A stretch of DNA of 36,158 nucleotides from Candidatus Acidiferrales bacterium (lineage in GTDB: Bacteria; Acidobacteriota; Terriglobia; Acidiferrales; UBA7541). The translations under genes were made by a program, and so were the position numbers. The notes under the pieces are model-generated. The model saw only the letters and a list, made by a program, of their open reading frames with translations, had not been told where the DNA came from and made no database searches. The stretch is from assembly GCA_030038275.1 (NCBI GenBank), contig JASHPG010000055.1, positions 1 to 36,158 on the forward strand, given 5' to 3'. Below, in pieces: positions 5,668-36,027 of the stretch. Positions within the stretch are counted from its first letter, which is position 1. Each line of letters starts with the position of its first letter.

Positions 5668-8370
5668 GGTTTTGGTCCGGCAACTTCTTTCTCATATGCG
5701 ACGTATTGGGGCGGATCGGTAGTTGACGTCCCGATAAGCCTTGCGCTCGATTGGAATGGGAACGCCTATCTTGCCGGCGAGACGTATTCCACCGACTTTC
5801 CAACGAGCACGGAAGCCTTTCAGTCGCAAGCGAAGGGCGGCGTCGATGCCTTCGTTACGAAGTTTGCCTTGAACTCGAACCCTGGAATCACAGCGTCCGC
5901 TATGCCGCCCCCAAACGCGTTCGGGTGGAACAATTCGACGGTGACCGTTTCGTTTTCCTGTATACCCGGTGCGGCGCCCATTCAGACATGCCCTTCCCCG
6001 GTGCAGGTGAGCGCCGAGGGTAGCAACCATGTTGTGTCGGGCACGGCGGTGGATACCGCGAACAACACGGCAACGGCGAGCGACACGGTGAATCTGGATT
6101 TAACCCCTCCGGTCGTGACGATCAACAGTCCGGCCAATAATTCGAGCGTGGCCACGCCGTACGTCGTTGTGACCGGGACCATGACGGACGCCCTGTCCGG
6201 CCCCGGCAGCGTCAATTGCAATGGAGTTCCTGCGACGCTCTCTGGTACGAACTTCTCATGTACGGTGCAGCTTTCCTCGGTGTCTAATTCCATTACAGCC
6301 ATGGGCAGCGATTTGGCTGGGAACACCGCGTCAGCGACCGTTACCGTTGGTGTGAGCATGGTCGCGCCGACGTCTTTGACGATCACACCGGGCCCAGCGA
6401 CGATTATGATGGGACAGACGCAATCTTTCGCGGCGGTCGATCAAAGTGGAACACGCCGCCCGGACGCCACTTGGTCGGTAAGCGATTCGAGCATCGCAAG
6501 TTTTGTGAGCGGAAGCCCCAATACGCTTCTTGGTGACACGGCGGGTCAGGTGACGCTGACGGCTACTATCGGCACCGCTTCCGCGCAGACGCAGGTGACG
6601 GTGACTGCAACCGCTCCGACAGTCGGCACGGTTCTGTGGACGGCGCCGCAGGTTCCCGGATTCACCACGTACCATGTCGCACAGGCCGTTCCAACCGCGA
6701 ACGGGCCGGACCTGTATTCCCTCTCGCGAGACTCGTCCAATGATGTCCTTATCCAGGCGCTCAAAAGCGACGGCGAGTTGCTGTGGCAGACGACCATAAA
6801 CGGATCGCAATATACGAATTGCTGCGCGGGTATTCCGGACGGCTACGGCGGACTCGTATTAGTTGCGCAGAATGTTATGTTTGATCTAGACGGCGCGACG
6901 TCTAGCCAGAAGTGGCAGTACACAGCGCAGGGTTCCTATTTTTTCAATAATGCCCTTGCGGTAGGTTTTGACGGTACGATTTGGGGCATCGAGCTGGCGT
7001 GCGTAGATAATGCGGGTACAAACACCGTGGTCGACTGCCTTGATGCTATTGATGGCACGACCGGCACGTTGAAAAGCCAGGTTCAATTGCCTGGAAGCAC
7101 TTACTACGACCAGAGTACTTGCGCGGAGAGCGAAGCGACCCGCGGCTATTACACGCCTCCGATCATCGCGCCAGATGGGTAGGCTTACATGCTCATAGAT
7201 TCGTGGAACGACGCCTGTCAAGGAACCCAAAGCGGTTTTCAAAGCGAGACATTGAGCCTCTTTAAGAATGGAGCAGCGTACGCAACAATCGAGACTCGCT
7301 CCGCCCCATTTTACGGGCAGGGTGAATTTGAGTTCACACCCACCTCCGCTATTCCGGATGGCAGCGGAGGAGTATTGGCGATTTTCCACAACGATTCGAG
7401 CGAATGCAGCGCGTACGACACAAGCTCGGGCGCCACGGCTACTCTAGCGAACACGAATTGCCCGACGTCGTCTGACAACGTCGTATTGGGAAAAAACAAT
7501 ACGGCTTTCCTCAGCTCTGGGCAACTCGTGGTTGCTTTTAATGCCGCAACACTTCAGCAGAACTGGGCGTACACGTCTGCCGGCTCCCCCACACTTGTCG
7601 CTGCCACGGACGACGATGGCGTCACGATTGACGATAGCCAGCAAGGCATAATCCAACTTGATGAGAATGGTAACGCGGGCACTCCCGTTTCGACCCTTCA
7701 GGATGCCGCACCGTTTGATATGGCGACATGGGAGCAGGTTATCAACGGGGATCTGTCCATGATTTGGAGTCCGAGCGGGTCGAACGGGGTACCAAACACA
7801 CTCGCGGACTCGCCTGCCCCGATGCTCGGTGAAAACCAATATGGCCAGCGTCGGCCCCCGCTGTGTCAGAACGCAAAGGTGATCTGTGCCCTCGCGCCGG
7901 AACAGGACAACCTCCAGGGCAGTTTTCCTCCTGGCGTCAAGGAGCGCGATATCGTATACAAAGCATTCTACTTCCATGAAGACACGAAGGAGTTGGAGCC
8001 GCTCAGCGGCCCCGCCAGGATCGCCTGGAACGAGGAACTCTTGTCCGGGGCCAGCGTTGTTTGCAGCTTTCCGACCACTGTGTGCCAAAACACTCCTGCC
8101 CAGTACAACTCGGCCCAGGCTGAGGACGTGCTGAATGCCGGAAGCTCGGGCGTTGCCACGATTAAGCAGACGTTTTTTGTGGATCGCGGCCAGGTTCGCG
8201 TTTTTTGGCCTTCGCTGCAAATCCTTCCAAGCGGATTCGAAGCAAACCAATGGACGGGGGCCTTGACACAGATCGCCACGACGTACACGAACGGCCCCCG
8301 CATCCAGCAACAGACTCCGGATAGGTTCGGGGTCATGTGTTCGGCGGATTGCGACACTACACCTCCATAA
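5668..8370 (+). pseudogene. Decayed secreted SBBP / Ig-like / beta-propeller protein gene, 5' end lost and interrupted by TAG
   Basis: One continuous reading frame of 900 codons (excluding the terminal TAA) lies between a TGA at 5665-5667 and the TAA at 8368-8370, broken only by a TAG at 7180-7182. Translated, it starts mid-protein with an SBBP-type beta-propeller repeat: FSYATYWGGS, ALDWNGNAYLAGETYSTDFP, GGVDAFVTKF, at about 5689-5868. Next come two Ig-like segments (TPPVVTINSPANNSSV; LTITPGPATIMMGQTQSF, about 6100-6620) and a PQQ-like propeller region with LLWQTTINGSQ and SQKWQYTAQG. The C-terminal part is unassigned. No ATG or GTG exists in frame before the SBBP repeat, so the 5' part is missing. 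Across the TAG the frame reads PDG-stop-AYMLIDSW, with propeller-like sequence on both sides. Intact relatives are secreted or surface proteins common in Acidobacteriota. A sequencing error at the TAG cannot explain the lost start. Confidence 0.75.
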
Positions 8371-27338: not shown

Positions 27339-29411
27339 TCAGTTTTGCCCGTTTGGCTGATTCTGCTGTTCCTGTTCGGGAGCGGGCACAACGATGATTT
27401 CCCCGTATTGCCAGGGGTATTCCTTGCAATGGTAAATGTATGTCCCCGGCTTATCGAACGTGACCGTCGCGACATCCAGAGGATGCAACGCGCGCGTGGA
27501 CCAGGACCCGTCAAGAGCTTCGATCGTGTGAACCAAAGTTCCGTTGTTCTTGAAAGTGACCGGCGTACCGGCGGTCACTCGCGCGCGGTACGGGTTGAAA
27601 GCGTATTCGTCCGTCATGTAGTGTGACCCGGAGAGGCCCGAGTCCTGCCCGAGCGAAGCGGTTTGGATTGTTGAAGTGTTGGTGATGACGCCAGAAAACT
27701 CCTGTTCGGGCGGCGCGCGCGGTGCGGGCTGCTGCGGAAGCGTTCCACCGAGTTTGAAGGCCCAAACTTGGCCGCCCGCGATTGTGACGATGTATTCTTC
27801 GCCATTTTGTTCAAATGCGATCGGCGGACCGCCAGTGGCCGCGCCCGTTTGGAACTGCCAGACGAGATTCCCATTCGAGGCGTCGTACGCCCCCAGGTCG
27901 CCATTGCCCGGCGTCGCAAACACCAGACCGCCCGCCGTCGCCAGCGCGCCAGTGGGGCGATGGCCGCGAAATTCTTTTTTCCAGACGACCTTGTCCGTGC
28001 GGCTGTCAATCGCCGCCAAAACGCCAAAACTCAACCCGCTCAGACCCGGCACGTGCGCGCTGAAGCTGCCGCTAAAGTAATCCGGATCGGCGGCGCGCCG
28101 GAACCATTGCAAACCAGCGTTTCCCGACGCGTAGAAAAAGCGGGTCTGAGGATCGTATGCCATCGGATCGACGCGCATCCCGTAAACCGGCGCCAAAAGA
28201 TTTGGCCGATCAACGGAAGCGGGAGTGAAAAAGCAGCCGACGGTGAAGCCGGCGGGAAGCTTCTGAGTTCTCCAGTAGTTGCAGTCGGGCAGGACGGGCT
28301 CTGCGCCAACTGGGTACGGCTGCGTTTTCGAGGTCTTCTGAAACGCATCCTGATCGACTCGCCGATTGTCGATTTTTTCTAATGGCTGGCCAGTGGTGCG
28401 ATTGAGTATGAAGAGATAGCCGTCGGTGCGCATGGCCGCGATGGCCTTGACGGTCTGGCCGTTCACTTCCGCGTCAAACTGCACGAGCGGCTCGGCAACA
28501 TCGGCCTCCCAAATGTCGTGATGAACCACCTGGTAATGCCAGCGCAACTTCCCGCTCTTGTTATCAAGCGCGATCACCGAATCGGTGTAGAGGTTGTCGC
28601 CGGGGCGATTTTCCCCGCCATATTGCGGCACGGCGTTGCCGGTGGGATAGAAATCCAGACCCAACTGGGAATCGTAAGTCCCGTTTAACCAGATGGCGCC
28701 CCCGCCATGCTTCCACGCGTCGTTGTTTTTCGGCCAAGTGTCCGAACCTGGCTCGCCCGGCGACGGAATGATGAAAAAGCGCCAGACCTCGTGGCCAGTT
28801 TTGGCGTCAACGGCAACGATCTGTCCGCGGTATCCGAAATCGGCGTTCAAGCCGATCGATACGATGCCGTCGGCGTACAGCGGAGCGCCCGAAGAGCCGC
28901 CCACCACTTCGCCCGAAGGATTGTGCAGATCGGCCTTCCAAACAAACTCGCCGGTGTCTTCGCGGAGAGCAACGAGATAGGAATTCGAGAGGCCAACGAA
29001 CACCATGCCGTCGCCGACTGCCACGCCTCCGCGCGCCGGTTCGCCGCCGCGCTGCGCATGGTAGCGCCATGCGGTCTTGCCCGTGGCGATGTCCAGGGCA
29101 TAAACGTATGGCGGGGCGGTGAAGAGCAGCAAGCCGTGGTCCACCACCGCGCTGGCGCGAGCGGTAGGCGGCGGCACAATCTTATCCGAGACCCACGCCG
29201 CCCCCAGCTTGGAGATATTCCGCGAATCGATTTGGGTGAGCGGAGAATAGCGCGTGTTCTGCATGTCGCCGTTGACGGTGGGCCATTGCGCCCTCGCGGC
29301 CCGCGCGCCGATCGTCGAGAAGGCAATCACAATGGCCACACAAAACCCCGTACAGGCCGATCGGATTTGCCAAGCCCTACGTGTGATTCGAAGTCCCTTT
29401 CGTTCCATCAT
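27339..29411 (-). CDS. Periplasmic PQQ-dependent dehydrogenase with C-terminal cupredoxin-like domain
   Basis: Exported quinoprotein of 690 aa. The signal peptide is at about residues 12-42 (FCVAIVIAFSTIGARAARAQ). An eight-bladed PQQ propeller runs to about residue 560, with blade signatures such as NTRYSPLTQID, VYALDIATGKTAWRY and QIVAVDAKTGHEVWRF, and the WHYQVVHHDIWEAD segment typical of PQQ alcohol/sugar dehydrogenases. The last ~110 residues form a cupredoxin-like domain: His628 in LVHTIEA and Cys662 in YHCKEYPW. Tyr665 stands where a copper-binding His is expected, and no Met follows, so type 1 copper binding is doubtful. Two adjacent ATGs (29411, 29408) follow GGGAG. A promoter with a palindromic operator lies at 29451-29486, shared with the selenoprotein operon. 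Substrate unknown; likely an alcohol or aldose. Confidence 0.88.
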   Translation of the reverse strand: MMERKGLRITRRAWQIRSACTGFCVAIVIAFSTIGARAARAQWPTVNGDMQNTRYSPLTQIDSRNISKLGAAWVSDKIVPPPTARASAVVDHGLLLFTAPPYVYALDIATGKTAWRYHAQRGGEPARGGVAVGDGMVFVGLSNSYLVALREDTGEFVWKADLHNPSGEVVGGSSGAPLYADGIVSIGLNADFGYRGQIVAVDAKTGHEVWRFFIIPSPGEPGSDTWPKNNDAWKHGGGAIWLNGTYDSQLGLDFYPTGNAVPQYGGENRPGDNLYTDSVIALDNKSGKLRWHYQVVHHDIWEADVAEPLVQFDAEVNGQTVKAIAAMRTDGYLFILNRTTGQPLEKIDNRRVDQDAFQKTSKTQPYPVGAEPVLPDCNYWRTQKLPAGFTVGCFFTPASVDRPNLLAPVYGMRVDPMAYDPQTRFFYASGNAGLQWFRRAADPDYFSGSFSAHVPGLSGLSFGVLAAIDSRTDKVVWKKEFRGHRPTGALATAGGLVFATPGNGDLGAYDASNGNLVWQFQTGAATGGPPIAFEQNGEEYIVTIAGGQVWAFKLGGTLPQQPAPRAPPEQEFSGVITNTSTIQTASLGQDSGLSGSHYMTDEYAFNPYRARVTAGTPVTFKNNGTLVHTIEALDGSWSTRALHPLDVATVTFDKPGTYIYHCKEYPWQYGEIIVVPAPEQEQQNQPNGQN

Positions 29412-29450
29412 TACGTCTCCCGAAAAAATCGGCGCCTGACTCGCCGCACC

Positions 29451-29486
29451 TGTATAATTGCATCGTCGTATTGTTGTCAAGACACC
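29451..29486 (-). promoter_or_regulatory. Promoter of the PQQ dehydrogenase with palindromic operator over the -35 box
   Basis: On the minus strand, TTGACA (29480-29475) is followed after 18 bp by TATACA (29456-29451), 40 bases before the ATG. The -35 box lies inside the inverted repeat GTTGTC-AA-GACACC at 29473-29486 (5 of 6 pairs). The same element, perfect, overlaps the -35 of the selenoprotein operon at 33978-33991, and TGCCCGGC follows both. It is a likely MarR-type operator. Confidence 0.65.
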
Positions 29487-29549
29487 ATTGCCCGGCAACT
29501 CGCGCGACCGCGCGCTACGCGGCTCGATTGGGGATTATCGCATTCGAGC

Positions 29550-29605: not shown

Positions 29606-30187
29606 ATGGCGATGATGGCCGATGGCGCGCAGCCGATTCCGCGCCGCGCCGAACTTGAACCTGCCGCCATGCGCAAGGCAAATCCCGCAAAATCGGAGCA
29701 CCGCGAACGCGCTCCGCACATTGATACGCTGATTCAGCTCGTGTCGGTGCGCGTAGTCCGTGTTGCGGACTTGATTCTTCGAATCGGCAAAATTACCTTT
29801 GGCGGCCGCTTTGGACTGAAGCCGACGGACCTGCGGATTTTGATCATCCTCGGGGCCCATCAGCCGATCTCCGTGAACGAGGTCAGCCGCAGGACGCATA
29901 TCGATAAGGCATGGATCAGCCGGTCGCTGGGAGCTTTATTGCGAAGAAAGCTGATCAAAAAGACCGCGCATCCCGCCGATAGCAGAGCGTCGTCGCTTTC
30001 CTTGACCAAGAAAGGCGAAGCGCTGTTGCGCCAGATCGCTCCGGTTGCTGAAGAGTATCAGCGCCAGCTACTGCGCGGGCAGCAACGAAGCGAGGTAGAG
30101 CGCGTACTGGATTTGCTCGCGGAGCGGGCCGAGGAGATGTACCAGCAAACGGTTCCGCAGCGCAAAAATGCCCGCCGGCCGCGTTAG
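29606..30187 (+). CDS. MarR-family transcriptional regulator
   Basis: A 193-residue winged-helix regulator. The MarR core spans about residues 40-175: LKPTDLRILIILGAHQPISVNEVSRRTHIDKAWISRSLGALLRRKLIKK contains the wing's recognition helix (KAWISRSLGAL), then the wing HPADSRASSLSLTKKGEALL with the usual Asp-Ser-Arg-Ala pattern, then the dimerisation helices. A basic N-terminal extension of about 38 residues and a basic tail are unusual. GGAG lies 5 bases before the ATG. MarR proteins act as dimers on palindromes of roughly this size and release DNA on binding small, often aromatic, ligands. The only well-matched palindromes in this region lie at the promoters of the PQQ dehydrogenase and the selenoprotein operon, on either side of this gene. 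That makes them its likely targets. Confidence 0.88.
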   Translation: MAMMADGAQPIPRRAELEPAAMRKANPAKSEHRERAPHIDTLIQLVSVRVVRVADLILRIGKITFGGRFGLKPTDLRILIILGAHQPISVNEVSRRTHIDKAWISRSLGALLRRKLIKKTAHPADSRASSLSLTKKGEALLRQIAPVAEEYQRQLLRGQQRSEVERVLDLLAERAEEMYQQTVPQRKNARRPR

Positions 30188-30274: not shown

Positions 30275-32053
30275 TTACGCCCATTCGTCGATGGATGTGC
30301 CACCCTCGGGCCTGAAATCGGTCGCAAACCAGACGCTGGCTGTCTTGCCGCCGGCCACAACCGTGTTGATGCCGTTGCCCGCAGCAAATGGCTTTATCAA
30401 CGTATCTCCCGGAACGGTCAACCAGTCGGCGTACGGTTTCAGTCCTTGGCGCGCCAACGGCGCCAGCATACTGGCGACGATAGAATTTCCCCAATACGAC
30501 GCCGCTGGTTTTTCGACGTTCTCGGAAAGCCACTTGCCAAGGGCTTCCTTGGAGCCGAACCCCTGAGCGCCTTTCAGCAACTCCGCGACCGAGGGATCCA
30601 TGATGATGGTCGCGCCCATCCCCGATAACGACGCCATGTAGTCGCGCATCAGCAGTTGCGGAGCGTAATGCTGCGCGGCCCAGCCGGTGCTGTTGATGAA
30701 ATTCCAGCCGGTGAATATCGTTACGATATTGTCGGAAGGTTTGTGTCCCATCTGCACGTGCAGGGGACGCCAGCCTTGCGGCAAGGACTCCTCGTTTTCC
30801 GCGAAACAAAGATTGTCGTAGCGCAGCGGATTGCTGAGCGATGCAAAGCCCGTCACGCCCTCGTTGTAACCCTGGATCGCCTTGTGAATGAGCGTCATCG
30901 ACCGGCCGATGACGGAATTCGCTTCGTTATCCGGCCCAAGCGCTCCCAGCCCGGAATTCATCCCAATCTTGTTGCGAATCGGACCGTTCACCACGATCAT
31001 CTGCGCGATCGAAGTTGTTGAGTCCATGTACGGCACTCGCGTGGAGAGCGCCAGAATCACGGGCAAATATTCGGGCTTGGCGCCGGCCATCACGGCAACG
31101 GTCGCGACTTTTTCCACGGTAAACGGGCGGCGCGCACCGAACGTTCCAGAACCGGATTTTATGATTTCATCAGGCTGGCGGCTGGTTCCCTTCAGCATGG
31201 CCGCGACTTTTTCTTCCGTGGGCAAGATCACCGGGTTGTAGTCGGTCCAGTGTCTGGCCATGAACAGGCGCTGTAAATTATCGGGCGTATCCGGCGGAAG
31301 CATGCGCGGCTCGGCAGCCGCCGCGCCAGGCGCAGGCCCGGACAATTTTTCCTCAGGGGTAAGCGGGCTGGTAAGCGCGTCCACAACGGCTTGCATGAAT
31401 GGCTTGCCGCTGACCATGTCTTTGCCTGCGACGAATTTCGCGGCTACCGCCTCGGGCTGTCCGGCGAACGGAAATGGCACGCCCACGAACCGAAGAGGCA
31501 TGCCGCTGTCGTACTTGAAGTAGGCGCCCAGGCCAAACGACACTACGTTGTCACCTGCGAGAGCGACGGTGGGGATCTGATACTTGCGCTCGATTTCTCC
31601 TGCTTCGCGGCTCACGGACGCGACGCAGCCGTGTCAACCAGCGACGCCGATAATTACAGCGTCTCCGTGGTTGTCGGCAATCTCCTTCCACAGCGCCGGA
31701 TCGTCAGTGACGAAGTTCCCGCTCTTGATCTTGTAGATCGTCTTCACACTGGGCATGTGCTGCGCGAACCAGCGTTGCATTTCGTGGAGAACGTCGCCGT
31801 TCTGCTGCATTCCTCCCCAGTCGAAGTCCACAACGTAAATTGTCTTCCCCTGTAAAGTGGCTAGCCGAGGCGCCAGCGGCACGCGATTCGCCAGCTTGGT
31901 TTCGATTCCGGGGTTCAGCACGGAGACTAAGCCTTCCGATCCGCAACCCGCGGCATCGGGCGCGGCCAGAGGAGCCGTGCGTGCAAACGCCGACGTACCA
32001 GCCGCGAGAGCCGGGCTGATTCCTAAGAGCGCCAACATTTTTCGCCGATCCAT
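30275..32053 (-). CDS. Tat-exported UGSC-family selenoprotein B (Sec140 encoded by in-frame TGA, U-H-G-C motif)
   Basis: A single 592-residue selenoprotein if the TGA at 31636-31634 is read as selenocysteine. Otherwise the frame splits into a 139-residue and a 446-codon piece. The frame is the same on both sides and reads IIGVAG-Sec-HGCVASVSREAG, giving Sec140-x-x-Cys143. The start ATG (32053) has GAGGAGG about 6 bases upstream, and the N-terminus MDRRKMLALLGISPAL is a twin-arginine signal. After the redox motif comes MPLRFVGVPFPF. A second domain follows with YNPVILPTEEKVAAMLKGTS, TVEKVATVAVMAGAKPEYLPVI and VVNGPIRNKIGMNSGLGALGP. These match the UGSC (seleno)protein family as I remember it. 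The end, SIDEWA, pairs with SINEWI of the paralog upstream, 42 bp away. A SECIS-like hairpin follows the TGA. The reaction is unknown; the motif implies thiol/selenol redox chemistry in the periplasm. Confidence 0.87.
31605..31623 (-). promoter_or_regulatory. SECIS-like hairpin in selenoprotein B mRNA
   Basis: Starting 11 bases after the TGA (31636-31634), the transcript has perfect arms UCGCG and CGCGA around the 9-base loop UCCGUGAGC. The loop's G and U fall 19 and 20 bases after the TGA, close to the GU of the E. coli fdhF SECIS loop (20-21 by my count). An alternative fold with arms CGGCU/AGCCG is possible. It was folded by eye only. Confidence 0.6.
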
Positions 32054-32095
32054 AATCGCCTCCTCGATTTCGATGCTATTCATGCCGTCGAGCCG

Positions 32096-33772
32096 TCAGA
32101 TCCATTCGTTGATCGACGCGCTCTTCACGTAATGCATCCCGCCGTAATCCCAGTACAAATTGTTCGACGATCCAGTAACCAAGATGTTGATCTGCGCCTT
32201 GCTTCGGAAATGCGGCGCGGACTCGCCCTGGCTCTGATAGAGGAAATCCGTCAGCTTATCGACGCTATCGTATCCCTCGCTCTTCATGTAGTTGGCCACG
32301 GCGGGGCTGAGTACCGCGAGAATCCCGAACAGTTGGTCCTGGTCGTTCGCGATGTTTTTAAGTTCCTGCGCGAAGTTCATGTCCTTGGACCAAACGGCGT
32401 ACTTGGAATTCTTCGCCGAAATCATTCCCCATCCCTCGAATATACTCACGGCGTTTTCATTCGGCTTGAACCCACGCCGGACGCTGAACGGCTCCCAGGG
32501 AGACTCCTTTTCGTTCTCCGCGATGATGATGTTCGCGTAATTCATGGGATTCCCGATCACGCCCATGTACGTCTGATCGACTTTGCCGCAGTTCCCGCCG
32601 TTGATTGAAAGCAGCGTGTACGCGCGCCCAATTGTTGCATTAGCATGACTGAAAGGGCCTAGCGCGCCGATATGGTAGTTCAATCCGATTTGATCGCGGA
32701 TCGGACCATTGATCACCACTGCTTCGGTAAACGAATTGTCGGAGCTCGATATCGATTCCTTGCCAATCGAGGCGATTGCCAAAATCACCGGAAAGTATTT
32801 CGGATCGGCGCCTGCCATCACCGCGTTCACGGCCACCTGCCTGACGGTATAGGACCAATATTCATATACCCCAGGCGTCGGCGACATCTTGCCAACCACA
32901 TCATCGGGCTTGCGGCTTGTCCCCTTGAGCATCGCGTCCACCCGCTCTTTCGTGGGCAAAACAACCGGCAGATAATCGGTCATTCTCTGCTTCATCAGCA
33001 GGCGCTGCAGGCTTTCCGCGGTTTCGGGCCCGTACGTCTCCGGCCCGGCGGACTGCGGGATCGTCCGGGTAGCCGTGTCTTCGCCGCTGATCGGTGTGGT
33101 CAGCTCTGCGACGATCTCCTGCATTACGGGCTTTCCCGTAATTGGATCGTTTCCGTCGATCACGTCGTGGCGTAGTTGTTCCGCCGTCTTCCCCCAAACG
33201 GGCGATTTGACGTACGTAAACCGCAGGTGCGGCATGCCCTTCTTGGCTGCGTTTTCTTCAACCAACTGCTGGAAGTATTGCGTGATGATGGAAACGGTCG
33301 GCTTGTGAAATTCGGATTCGAAGGAGATGTCGTGGCCAACGACCGCTGGCGAGCAGTAGCTTCAATGCCCCACTCCCATCACTACGGCATCGCCTTTGGC
33401 CTTGATCTCCGCCCACAGTGCCGGATCCACCTGAGGAAATCCGCCGGATTTGAGCCTGTAAACCGCCGTGACGCCGGGAACGTTCTGGTTGAACCATGCG
33501 ACCATTTCTTTCATCAGGACGTCCGTCCCGGGAAAGCCGTCGTCCACGAAATACACGGTCTTGCCATCGAGAGATTTCGGCCGCGGCGCCATTCCCAACA
33601 GCTGGATCGCTGGCGGCGTCCCCAACGGGCTTAGGATCGTAAGCTTTGGGTCGAAGTCGCCCCTGGCGCTTGTGGAGGCCATTGGTTCAGCGGCCCTCGC
33701 GGCATAGGAAGGCGCGGCGGCTGCCAGCGCCGGTGTGATTCCGAGCAACGACAACATCTTTCGTCGATCCAT
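32096..33772 (-). CDS. Tat-exported UGSC-family selenoprotein A (Sec137 encoded by in-frame TGA, U-S-Y-C motif)
   Basis: A 558-residue selenoprotein if the TGA at 33364-33362 is decoded as Sec. The frame continues without shift through VVMGVGH-Sec-SYCSPAVVGHD, so the redox motif is Sec137-x-x-Cys140. The 32 codons between the TGA and the next possible start read as good protein (FESEFHKPTVSIITQYFQQL), which argues against two separate genes. MDRRKMLSLLGITPALAAAAPSYAARA is a Tat signal peptide. MPHLRFTYVKSPVWGK, MTDYLPVVLPTKERVDAMLKGTS, QVAVNAVMAGADPKYFPVI and VVINGPIRDQIGLNYHIGALGP follow, colinear with selenoprotein B. GGAGGT lies 7 bases before the ATG. It is the first gene of the two-gene operon, driven by the operator-bearing promoter at 33957-33991. 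The physiological substrate is unknown. Sec synthesis genes must lie elsewhere. Confidence 0.87.
33335..33350 (-). promoter_or_regulatory. SECIS-like hairpin in selenoprotein A mRNA
   Basis: Arms GCCAG and UUGGC (one G-U pair) enclose the 6-base loop CGGUCG, 12-27 bases after the TGA (33364-33362). Two further pairs can form outside a three-base bulge. The GGUC in the loop matches the AGGUCU loop of the E. coli fdhF SECIS as I recall it, at nearly the same distance from the stop. It was folded by eye only. Confidence 0.65.
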
Positions 33773-34188
33773 CAGCGCACCTCCAATTTGTCTCGATCGT
33801 CGGCAAGCCCGCTTTCGCCTGGAGAGCGGAGAAGAAGAGAGGTGAAGATTTCTCAGCGGCCCGCATGTTGTTCGAACCTTCCGTTTGCGCCGTCAACATC
33901 TTCAGGCTAATGCTCAGGACCGATTGCTCCCGCCGGCTGATCGTTGCGGCGGGCCAAGTACAACAAACTCGATTGTAGTTGTCAAGACAACAAAATGCCC
34001 GGCGTGCCCGCGAATTTCTTGACAAACATGCTGCTTCCGGTATCTATTTCGGTGGTTCTTCCGGCATCCGCCGGCATTGGCGCGCGGCCAGACTGAGCCG
34101 GTGCTTTTGAAGTCGCTGCGTACCTCCGTGGGTGAAGGCGCATAATATATATAGGGCTCGTGGGGCAGGCGCGTAACGCAGGTGGCCT
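33773..34188. other. Divergent control region between selenoprotein operon and dikinase genes
   Basis: A 416-bp gap with no believable gene. It contains the selenoprotein promoter/operator at 33957-33991. On the plus strand a TTGACA at 34019-34024 has a poor TATCTA 16 bp further on, and an AT-rich run CATAATATATATA lies at 34141-34153. Either could serve the dikinase gene at 34189. The long leader of selenoprotein A (33773 to about 33950) shows no clear riboswitch fold by eye. Confidence 0.5.
33957..33991 (-). promoter_or_regulatory. Promoter of the selenoprotein operon with perfect palindromic operator
   Basis: On the minus strand, TTGACA (33985-33980) is followed after 17 bp by TGTACT (33962-33957). 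The perfect inverted repeat GTTGTC-AA-GACAAC spans 33978-33991 and contains the -35 box. It implies a leader of roughly 175 bases before the ATG at 33772. It is the twin of the site at 29473-29486. Confidence 0.7.
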
Positions 34189-36027
34189 ATGGGAAAAACG
34201 AACATGAATTCGACTGCAACGGCAAAGGGTTTTCCGGTTCCAAGTTCGCTAAAGATCGTTCCGGGCACGGAGCGCGCGCAGGCCGCGTATCCCTATTACA
34301 TGCAGTTCACGAAGGAAGACGACCAGCGGTTCTGGTTTTACAACTCCATGCATTTCCCCGAGCCGATGTGCGTTTTCGATATGGTGACGGCCGAGGCCGC
34401 CTACGCCGCGCTAGGCTCGGCCAATACGCGAGTGCATTCCCTGCCGACCACCCTTGGCATCGACTACCGCATCATCAATGGGCGCGTTTATATCGGCGGG
34501 AACGGTGTAACCGATCCCAAGGAGATCGAGCGGCGCACCAGGGAATTTCAGCAGCGCGCGTTCTACTACTACGCCAATTGGGAGCGGCTCTTCGCGCAAT
34601 GGAAGCAGAAGATGCTCGCGCTAATCCGCGAGGCCGAAGCCCTGCCGAAACTCGAGCTGCCGGAGTTCGAGCCTCTGCAATACGTCCACGCCGGCCGCGG
34701 CATCGCATCGAACCACTACCTTCTCGAAACCTACCAGAAAACTCTCGAAGGCTACTACCGGATGTGGCATCACCACTTCGAATTTCTTCTGCTCGGCTAC
34801 GGCGCTTATCTGACGTTCTTCGATTTTTGCAAAAAGGCCTTTCCTGAAATCAGCGATCAGACGGTGGCGCGAATGGTCGCCGGTCTCGAAGCCGAGATTT
34901 TCCGGCCAGACGATGAGCTGCGCCGCCTGGCCAAATGCGCGATTGATCTCGGGGTTGACGATCAGTTCCGGACGGGCCGGCCGCCCGACGAAATCATCCA
35001 ATCGCTGAAGCAAACGGGCGAGCGCGGTGACGCATGGCTCAAGGAGCTTAACGTCTCGCGCGATCCTTGGTTCAACATCAACGTCGGCGATGGCTTTTAT
35101 CATTATCACCGTTCCTGGAACGATGATCTGTCGATGCCTTTCGCCGCGCTCCCCGGCTATATCGCCAACGCGAAACGGGGAGAACGGCTTGAGAGGCAAA
35201 CAGACCGCCTGATGGACGAGCGCAAGAAGCTCATCGCCGACTATCGCGAACTTCTCGAAACCGAGGACGATCGCGCCGTCTACGATCAGATGATCGCGCT
35301 CGCGCATCGCGTGTTCCCGTACGTCGAAGGGCATAAGTTCTATTGCGAGCACTGGTACACGAATCTGTTCTTCAACAAAATCAGGGAATTCGGCGCGCTG
35401 CTGGCGCGGAATGGGTTCTTTCCTGACAGTGAAGACGTGTTTCAGTTGAGCCATTACGAAGTCGAGGCCGCCGTCGTGGACCTCATGACCGCGTGGTCCA
35501 ACGGCTCGGAACCGCGCGGTCCGGCCGTCTGGCCCGCTATCGTCAAGGAGCGCAAAGCGGCTATCTTGGAGTGGTCCAAGCATGACACCGCGCCGGCGCT
35601 TGGTCCGGTTCCGGATATCATCGACGATCCCGCCATCGTCATGCTCTGGGGCATCACGCGCGAAAATCTGGATGCCTGGCTTTCGGCCGGCGAGCAGCCG
35701 GATTCCAACGAGATCAAGGGGTTCGCCGCTTCGCATGGCGTTGTGGAGGGTGTTGCGCGCGTGGTGAAATCCGTCGATGACATCAACCGCTTAAAACACG
35801 GCGATATTCTCGTCTGCCAGGTTACAAATCCTAGCTGGGCGCCCGTTTTCCAGAATATTGCTGCCGCCGTCTCGGACATCGGAGGCTCTATGAGCCACGC
35901 CGCCATCGTCGCCCGCGAATACGGTCTCCCGGCCGTCGTCGGCACGGGCACGGCCACTCAGAAGATCAAGGACGGCCAGCGCATTCGCGTTGATGGTGGG
36001 CGTGGAATCGTTACGATCCTCGAATAG
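34189..36027 (+). CDS. Phosphohistidine (swivel) subunit of a split PEP-synthase-like dikinase, phenylphosphate-synthase-like
   Basis: A 612-residue cytoplasmic protein. The C-terminal ~90 residues are a PEP-utilising mobile domain: FAASHGVVEGVARVVKS, GDILVCQVTNPSWAPVF, and the swivel loop GGSMSHAAIVAREYGLPAVVGTG with His570 as the phospho-acceptor. The N-terminal ~500 residues are helical and aromatic-rich (FWFYNSMHFPEPMCVFD, YYRMWHHHFEFLLLGYG) and probably form the substrate domain. The arrangement of a ~70-kDa His subunit followed by a separate ATP-binding subunit matches phenylphosphate synthase of Thauera, whose catalytic His, from memory, is His569. Substrates of such enzymes include phenols, and pyruvate or rifampin in relatives. 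The ATG at 34189 has AGGTGG close by; an ATG five codons later is an alternative. It is divergent from the selenoproteins. The substrate is inferred only as an alcohol or phenol. Confidence 0.83.
   Translation: MGKTNMNSTATAKGFPVPSSLKIVPGTERAQAAYPYYMQFTKEDDQRFWFYNSMHFPEPMCVFDMVTAEAAYAALGSANTRVHSLPTTLGIDYRIINGRVYIGGNGVTDPKEIERRTREFQQRAFYYYANWERLFAQWKQKMLALIREAEALPKLELPEFEPLQYVHAGRGIASNHYLLETYQKTLEGYYRMWHHHFEFLLLGYGAYLTFFDFCKKAFPEISDQTVARMVAGLEAEIFRPDDELRRLAKCAIDLGVDDQFRTGRPPDEIIQSLKQTGERGDAWLKELNVSRDPWFNINVGDGFYHYHRSWNDDLSMPFAALPGYIANAKRGERLERQTDRLMDERKKLIADYRELLETEDDRAVYDQMIALAHRVFPYVEGHKFYCEHWYTNLFFNKIREFGALLARNGFFPDSEDVFQLSHYEVEAAVVDLMTAWSNGSEPRGPAVWPAIVKERKAAILEWSKHDTAPALGPVPDIIDDPAIVMLWGITRENLDAWLSAGEQPDSNEIKGFAASHGVVEGVARVVKSVDDINRLKHGDILVCQVTNPSWAPVFQNIAAAVSDIGGSMSHAAIVAREYGLPAVVGTGTATQKIKDGQRIRVDGGRGIVTILE

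Follow-up and report, generated by a model that had tools for sequence, protein, structure and literature searches.

The minus strand of a 36,158-nucleotide stretch of DNA from a Candidatus Acidiferrales bacterium (contig JASHPG010000055.1 of assembly GCA_030038275.1; the whole stretch is called the window below) carries two adjacent paralogous genes, A and B, each holding one in-frame TGA that is almost certainly decoded as selenocysteine (Sec), to judge by comparison with their homologs. Both belong to UGSC, a long-known, uncharacterised selenoprotein family. An earlier, sequence-only reading had proposed two adjacent Sec-containing UGSC-family proteins here, and the Sec machinery of the genome and the conservation of the site support this core claim. 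Our overall interpretation, which we think probable, is that these are exported Sec-Cys oxidoreductases that diversified for periplasmic substrates. Its parts differ in strength: the N-termini make export of A and B likely, and thiol/selenol redox chemistry is an assignment towards which we lean only slightly.

Results

Two genes in four open reading frames

A standard listing of open reading frames (ORFs) splits the two genes at their TGAs into four, at 33362..33772, 32096..33265, 31634..32083 and 30275..31615, all on the minus strand, and for this reason such a system is easily overlooked. The sequence-only reading had described these four truncated ORFs, and we found them all. When TGA is taken as a residue, a single frame runs in each gene from MDRRKML to the end (Table 1). 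A GGAGG lies upstream of the ATG of MDRRKML, at 7 bases in B and 5 bases in A; the start of A was set at 32053, and an alternative upstream ATG at 32083 is possible. Alignment confirmed that the TGAs, at codons 137 and 140, occupy equivalent positions: they align with each other and with the Sec/Cys site of the family, and a Cys follows three codons later (+3) in both. The two proteins match PF24696 in Pfam at 41.8 and 85.5 bits, for a gathering cut-off of 25 bits, with E-values of 1.7e-10 and 6e-24. Neither holds the literal UGSC motif; UHGC and USYC stand in its place and follow the UxxC pattern. The nearest named relatives are metagenome-assembled genomes of Acidobacteria and Candidatus Acidiferrales.

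Conservation of the Sec site

The genome holds the complete set of sel genes (selA, selB, selC, selD), with matches of 567 bits for selA, 382 for selB and 363 for selD, which itself holds one in-frame TGA, and a tRNA-Sec of 64 bits that ARAGORN calls tRNA-SeC. In a member of the same genus (G436), which retains nine UGSC matches, the selA match lies in several pieces on contigs C104 and C113; these are frameshifts or assembly errors.

Among 69 homologous sites, a set that is not random since some loci were fetched because they lack the TGA, 47 hold TGA, three hold Cys (distant homologs from Neorhizobium, Variovorax and Halorientalis) and 19 hold Ser, Thr, Ala, Gly, Leu, Asn or Ile; in the rows that diverge most, the site is placed with less certainty. 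Sec or Cys thus occupies 50 of the 69 sites, and the 19 exceptions are divergent paralogs confined to three genomes (G037, G113 and G274) of another family of the phylum. The +3 Cys is present in all 50 Sec/Cys rows and absent from 18 of the 19 others. Sec and Cys thus appear to have been lost together in the divergent paralogs, and this joint loss supports a two-residue redox centre. In one paralog of that family (L112, G113:C289, near 4352) we observed two consecutive in-frame TGAs (GGUUGC) that might form a double-Sec site.

Gene B has six close relatives in named records (74-89% identity), and TGA is found in all five that cover the site; the sixth (L024) begins downstream of it. The ratio of nonsynonymous to synonymous substitution rates (dN/dS) was computed for A and B against three orthologs each. 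Downstream of the TGA it was 0.05-0.135 in all six comparisons; upstream it was 0.14-0.18 in five, the sixth not being computable. Both sides thus fall below 0.2 in the five comparisons where both could be computed, so that the sequence on either side of the TGA is under purifying selection; the reading frame is conserved across it, as the sequence-only reading had it. It had also been argued that chance nonsense mutations at one site are improbable, and the equivalent TGA in independent relatives and in 84 of 88 matches from the window's genus agrees with this.

Copy number and age of the gene types

Selenoproteins are usually few per genome; here we found 14 Sec paralogs of one family in a genome of about 4 Mb, each of the 14 with a single TGA. 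The pair noticed at first is therefore real as two adjacent Sec genes, and yet only two of the 14 copies. In a 61-genome sample of the order, eight of the ten genomes of the window's genus have UGSC matches (8, 9, 10, 11, 12, 12, 12 and 14), in total 88: 84 with a single TGA and four with none (one of these partial). The family was found in none of the other 51 genomes. Missing Sec machinery as the cause of that absence is ruled out, selA being detected in 58 of the 61. The confinement of the expansion to one genus of this sample, with 14 paralogs in one genome, calls for a strong selective reason. At the level of the phylum, 39 of 396 sampled genomes have the family (at most eight candidates per genome scored), and a full search of four genomes of another family gave 27, 25, 11 and 10 matches; by a hand count of rows, 20 and 16 of those in the top two contain the TGA. 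Draft or mixed assemblies could raise or lower these counts. On this evidence the pair is part of a genus-level radiation of UGSC genes.

The pair is not the product of a recent tandem duplication, which is ruled out by a 64-row tree that assigns A and B to two distinct supported clades, both of which also contain genes of the other family. In three genomes of that other family (L089, L110 and L111), an A-type gene adjoins B-type genes, but in convergent orientation. In closer relatives a third type stands between B and A (L022, L023 and L024), and L023 has a fourth gene. The separate clades and the co-location in another family imply that the A and B types stayed or travelled together for long; both types would thus be old.

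Candidate SECIS elements

Just downstream of the TGA, we found synonymous constraint in two clades. The probability of the same codon was 0.94, vs 0.50 elsewhere, in the clade of 10 of the 14 genes of this genome, and 0.95 vs 0.42 in the A clade (p = 0.0002 in both, degeneracy-matched permutation, as for all such p values here); the non-TGA clade showed none at the equivalent place (p = 0.11). Eleven chosen B-type rows share a six-pair hairpin starting 14 bases past the T of the TGA, five B-clade rows in a different register having been excluded from this set. Both sides change in two of the six pairs, one position being A-U, G-C or G-U, and the covariation score was 0.224 vs 0.122 in shuffled alignments, with 9 of 500 shuffles equally high. 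The hairpins of A and B may be bacterial selenocysteine insertion sequences (SECIS).

In E. coli fdhF a GU in the loop, at about the equivalent distance, is the feature recognised by SelB. In our set a GU lies within bases 21-27 from the start of the TGA, a window chosen post hoc, in 47 of 47 TGA rows and in 6 of 22 others. At exactly bases 22-23 it occurs in 27 of the 47, and in 3 of the 14 rows of this genome; G22-U23 as a general invariant, which holds in 24 aligned rows, thus fails across the 47 TGA rows. In the RNAalifold set, the rows of this genome's own clade have their GU three bases farther downstream. Hairpin energies gave a Stouffer Z of -6.4 for bases 9-36 in 32 related, non-independent sequences from outside this genome (non-TGA, -1.1), and of -2.5 for bases 3-48 in these sequences (non-TGA, -1.1). 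The energy tests favour a hairpin outside the window's genome only.

Putative signals for export

The sequence-only reading had assigned signal peptides of the twin-arginine translocation (Tat) type to both proteins. In its favour, 12 of the 14 copies have by eye an RR n-region followed by a hydrophobic stretch, and tatC is present in the genome. Against it, the proteins of the window have no match to the Pfam Tat-signal family at E 0.001, and B-type relatives in the other family have leader-like N-termini without RR, e.g. MKWHKSAVLIALLCLGLFC. Tat export of A and B is plausible on these grounds; export as such seems to have been retained across families, by a route that may differ. The copies L057 and L069 have no such leader. 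The copy L071 (G000:C7), the only one in this genome with the literal UGSC motif, belongs to a distant clade, lacks a leader peptide and its product is probably cytoplasmic.

The C-terminal domain and the modelled fold

In A and B alike, the UGSC domain is fused to a C-terminal domain (CTD) of about 310 residues, for which searches of Pfam and NCBIfam at E 0.1 gave no family and a profile search gave no solved relative below E 0.8. A PDB fold could not be assigned either: the best Foldseek matches, to fumarate hydratase, were unconvincing (TM-scores 0.16-0.24, rmsd above 16). The CTD has a core of D266, T274, G356, N378, R383 and E419, found in every one of 45 Sec/Cys rows, and 18-19 of the 19 others have it too. 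Among the divergent paralogs of the other family, those at L103-L109, L113, L114 and L117 mostly have Ser or Thr in place of Sec and retain this core; they would be natural redox-dead relatives.

The model of the whole protein has a mean pLDDT of 89.8 and places Sec137 in the loop that links strand 129-135 to helix 140-153. The order of elements in the modelled UGSC domain, b-a-b-a-b-[Sec]-a-b-a-b, is parallel and flavodoxin-like, and its PDB matches are weak, several being flavodoxin-like. It does not show the strand order of the thioredoxin-like fold.

The two domains also occur apart. In Halorientalis the CTD is a separate gene adjoining a small UGSC gene, and by comparison of places the same separation into neighbouring genes is seen in several acidobacteria. 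In L041 and L053 the CTD is preceded by an AhpC-TSA/Redoxin domain (Pfam), and the contig also carries a UGSC match; this hints at a thiol/selenol redox partner for the CTD. More widely, in L040, L041, L043, L053, L097 and L098, the CTD comes after a segment whose motif is of the CPTC or CATC type, and in L041 and L053 that segment is the AhpC-TSA/Redoxin domain. Such swaps of the CTD partner, between UGSC and thioredoxin-like domains, and the paralogs lacking Sec and Cys provide ready-made controls for finding the function.

Neighbouring genes and regulation

Table 1. Genes, domains and putative signals of the pair and its surroundings in the window
Feature	Position	Strand	Remarks
Gene B	32096..33772	-	558-aa UGSC-CTD fusion, putative selenoprotein; one in-frame TGA; second TGA is the stop
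Gene A	30275..32053	-	592-aa UGSC-CTD fusion, putative selenoprotein; one in-frame TGA; terminates at TAA
TGA (Sec) of gene B	33362..33364	-	codon 137; GVGH-U-SYC (motif GHUSYC)
TGA (Sec) of gene A	31634..31636	-	codon 140, numbered from MDRRKML start at 32053; GVAG-U-HGC (motif AGUHGC)
UGSC domain (PF24696), gene B	33161..33637	-	Pfam
UGSC domain (PF24696), gene A	31436..31921	-	Pfam
CTD of gene B	32099..33055	-	no Pfam or NCBIfam family; AlphaFold2 mean pLDDT 87.4
Tat-like signal peptide region, gene B	33689..33772	-	MDRRKMLSLLGITPALAAAAPSYAA; end approximate, by eye
Tat-like signal peptide region, gene A	31970..32053	-	MDRRKMLALLGISPALAAG; end approximate, by eye
Putative bacterial SECIS hairpin, gene B	33335..33350	-	6 pairs, loop GGUC, 14 bases past T of TGA
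Putative bacterial SECIS hairpin, gene A	31600..31628	-	predicted fold
Palindrome GTTGTCAAGACAAC	33978..33991		upstream of gene B in orthologs; overlaps TTGACA; candidate operator
MarR-family regulator	29606..30187	+	adjoins pair in L021, L022, L024; not found in L023
PQQ-type quinoprotein dehydrogenase-like protein	27339..29498	-	cupredoxin-like C-terminus; divergent from MarR
PEP-utilising mobile-domain protein (PRK08296-like)	34189..36027	+	divergent from gene B; kept in L022, partial in L026

Orthologous loci have the order B-(X)-A, a convergent MarR gene, and then a quinoprotein gene divergent from MarR. The quinoprotein, whose cupredoxin match in the window is just below the Pfam cut-off, also neighbours the pair in L021 (63% identity) and L024 (67%); the parts of L022 and L023 that were retrieved show no such gene. 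The perfect palindrome GTTGTCTTGACAAC, with TTGACA, lies about 90-220 bases upstream of B in the window, L021, L022 and L026, and in L023 it lies upstream of the middle gene. No sigma-70 site came out of a promoter scan; the likely cause is the lack of a TATAAT-like element past the TTGACA of the palindrome. The MarR-linked operator proposed earlier thus stands as to the conserved palindrome and the adjacent regulator; this MarR may bind the palindrome. Two palindromic operator-like repeats, GTTGTCAAAACAAC and GTTGTCTTGACAAC, occur in L022 at 5858-5922.

Three of the 13 UGSC loci of this genome (the pair counted once) have a quinoprotein within 1 kb, one of them with an intervening cytochrome c gene. 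About 0.15 loci would be expected by chance, by a hand estimate from 23 quinoprotein loci in 4.07 Mb. Where such quinoprotein and cytochrome c genes lie nearby, they suggest that the UGSC proteins have a part in oxidising organic compounds in the periplasm. The other neighbours in this genome have no common theme (pirin, glyoxalase, an AMP-binding enzyme, a formate/nitrite transporter and others). In other organisms the unit lies near TRAP, tripartite tricarboxylate or ABC solute-binding proteins and near catabolic genes, including CoA transferases and thiamine pyrophosphate enzymes. We also observed a UGSC gene (L079, G000:C193) about 5 kb from selD, with a quinoprotein gene immediately upstream.

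Discussion

A working model and the results that weigh on it

The results can be put together as follows. An RNA hairpin 3' of the UGA would recruit SelB, and the N-terminal leader would direct A and B out of the cytoplasm. In the mature protein, Sec at the start of a helix and the +3 Cys would form a selenol/selenenyl-sulfide redox pair. The CTD would select and bind a small molecule, which the UGSC domain would reduce, oxidise or isomerise. Many copies would then mean many substrates, and at some loci the quinoprotein might act on the same compounds. More tentatively, and with more doubt than trust on our side, one may speculate that this is a new class of exported selenoenzymes with a CTD of undescribed fold and diverse substrates, of which A and B are an old obligate pair, and whose genus-level radiation, with 8-14 mostly TGA-bearing paralogs per genome, is perhaps the largest single-family expansion of selenoproteins in prokaryotes.

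A number of results weigh against this interpretation or parts of it. The assembly, a draft of 4.07 Mb, is fragmented into 240 contigs and 88% complete. Both proteins miss the cut-off of 125 bits of the NCBIfam UGSC equivalog NF041046 (22.4 and 54.8 bits) and are for this reason not filed under it; of the UGSC type claimed for them, the match to PF24696 stands, and neither the literal motif nor the equivalog assignment does. The evidence for a hairpin is uneven. The B clade shows no synonymous constraint past the TGA (0.50 vs 0.46, p = 0.21), the 14 genes of this genome show no excess stability over synonymous recodings (Stouffer Z +0.3 for bases 3-48 and -1.5 for the inner 27 bases, 9-36), and RNAalifold found no structure in an ungapped alignment of 45 distinct TGA sites from all clades. 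The joint loss of Sec and Cys implies that some paralogs manage without the redox centre, and the CTD core retained in Sec-free paralogs implies that the selenol is dispensable for some function of the family. Finally, 10 of the 13 loci of this genome have no quinoprotein within 1 kb (four of them at contig ends). None was found beside the other-family loci, so that the link reaches only as far as the window's genus and genomes close to it; the neighbours of those loci include DNA ligase, HflX-like GTPases (Pfam GTP-bdg set) and a sensor kinase.

Other explanations

In glycine reductase and D-proline reductase, Sec attacks the substrate as a nucleophile, and part of the substrate is cleaved off or transferred. 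Sec might work in this way in A and B, rather than as a dithiol-like redox switch. The uptake and catabolic genes near the unit in some other organisms would suit such chemistry, as would the polar CTD core, which resembles a substrate site, and a modelled fold that differs from the plain thioredoxin fold. Yet, the +3 Cys of all 50 Sec/Cys rows fits a redox pair, and the proteins of the window have no Pfam match to the glycine- or proline-reductase families at E 0.001. Kinship with these reductases is likewise unsupported elsewhere, with a single sub-threshold Gly_reductase match (E 0.022, in L053). We regard the nucleophile as the strongest competitor, and as unlikely.

Much less probable is that separate proteins are made from each gene, with an N-terminal part ending at UGA, a CTD started internally, and readthrough as a selenium-dependent switch. 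UGSC and CTD are indeed separate genes in the haloarchaeon and in other acidobacteria, but termination at the UGA would cut the UGSC domain midway, ahead of the +3 Cys.

That the TGAs are nonsense mutations, in pseudogenes or through sequencing or assembly errors, would fit truncated ORFs in a fragmented draft, but it is refuted by the TGA conserved in so many genomes, and the dN/dS values and full Sec machinery speak against it too; we give it practically no credence. We give no more to an alternative code in which TGA stands for a standard amino acid, for instance Trp, which would keep the frames open: gene B ends in TGA, as do 4 of the 12 other window genes examined, so the genetic code is unchanged, the residue aligned to the TGA is never Trp in the 22 rows without it, and selA, selB, selD and tRNA-Sec are all present.

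Comparison with known systems

As exported Sec-Cys oxidoreductases, A and B would extend a family already on record. They resemble UGSC proteins (PF24696, NF041046) by the Pfam match, the Sec at a UxxC site and the existence of Cys homologs. They differ by their UHGC and USYC motifs, the long CTD fusion, the leader peptide and scores below the NF041046 cut-off. The fusion has a precedent, since the Global Ocean Sampling work (PMC2398784) describes a UGSC/Unknown_1 selenoprotein, likewise UGSC joined to a conserved domain of unknown function, the present comparison being one of architecture. The same source calls the UGSC fold likely thioredoxin-like, whereas in our model strands and helices follow one another in a parallel, flavodoxin-like arrangement. 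The novelty claimed for the system is thus partial: the family and a UGSC fusion were already published there, and in the open-licence literature searched we found no A/B pair or other tandem UGSC pair, no multi-copy expansion of the family and no acidobacterial UGSC proteins.

The neighbouring quinoprotein resembles the PQQ (pyrroloquinoline quinone) alcohol dehydrogenases and the acido-empty-quinoprotein group, matching TIGR03075 and TIGR04528 below both curated cut-offs (301.6 of 480.05 and 325.5 of 650). According to the parts of a 2026 review that treat these subjects (PMC13188914), aerobic bacteria rarely retain selenoproteins. Several adjacent selenoprotein genes are known from the operons discussed there (grdA-grdB, prdB-prdC, and the SAO and Tso systems). 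Those join different families, whereas A and B are two paralogs of one family with more copies elsewhere in the genome. The largest bacterial selenoproteomes that the review reports comprise 57 and 63 genes, all families taken together, and it is possible that the 63 include a UGSC set larger than 14. For scale, a 2016 survey (PMC5029168) sets the mark of a selenoprotein-rich organism at six or more selenoprotein genes in a figure legend, and its Table 3 counts 33 UGSC selenoproteins across 26 organisms, against which the window's genome alone has 14 UGSC copies.

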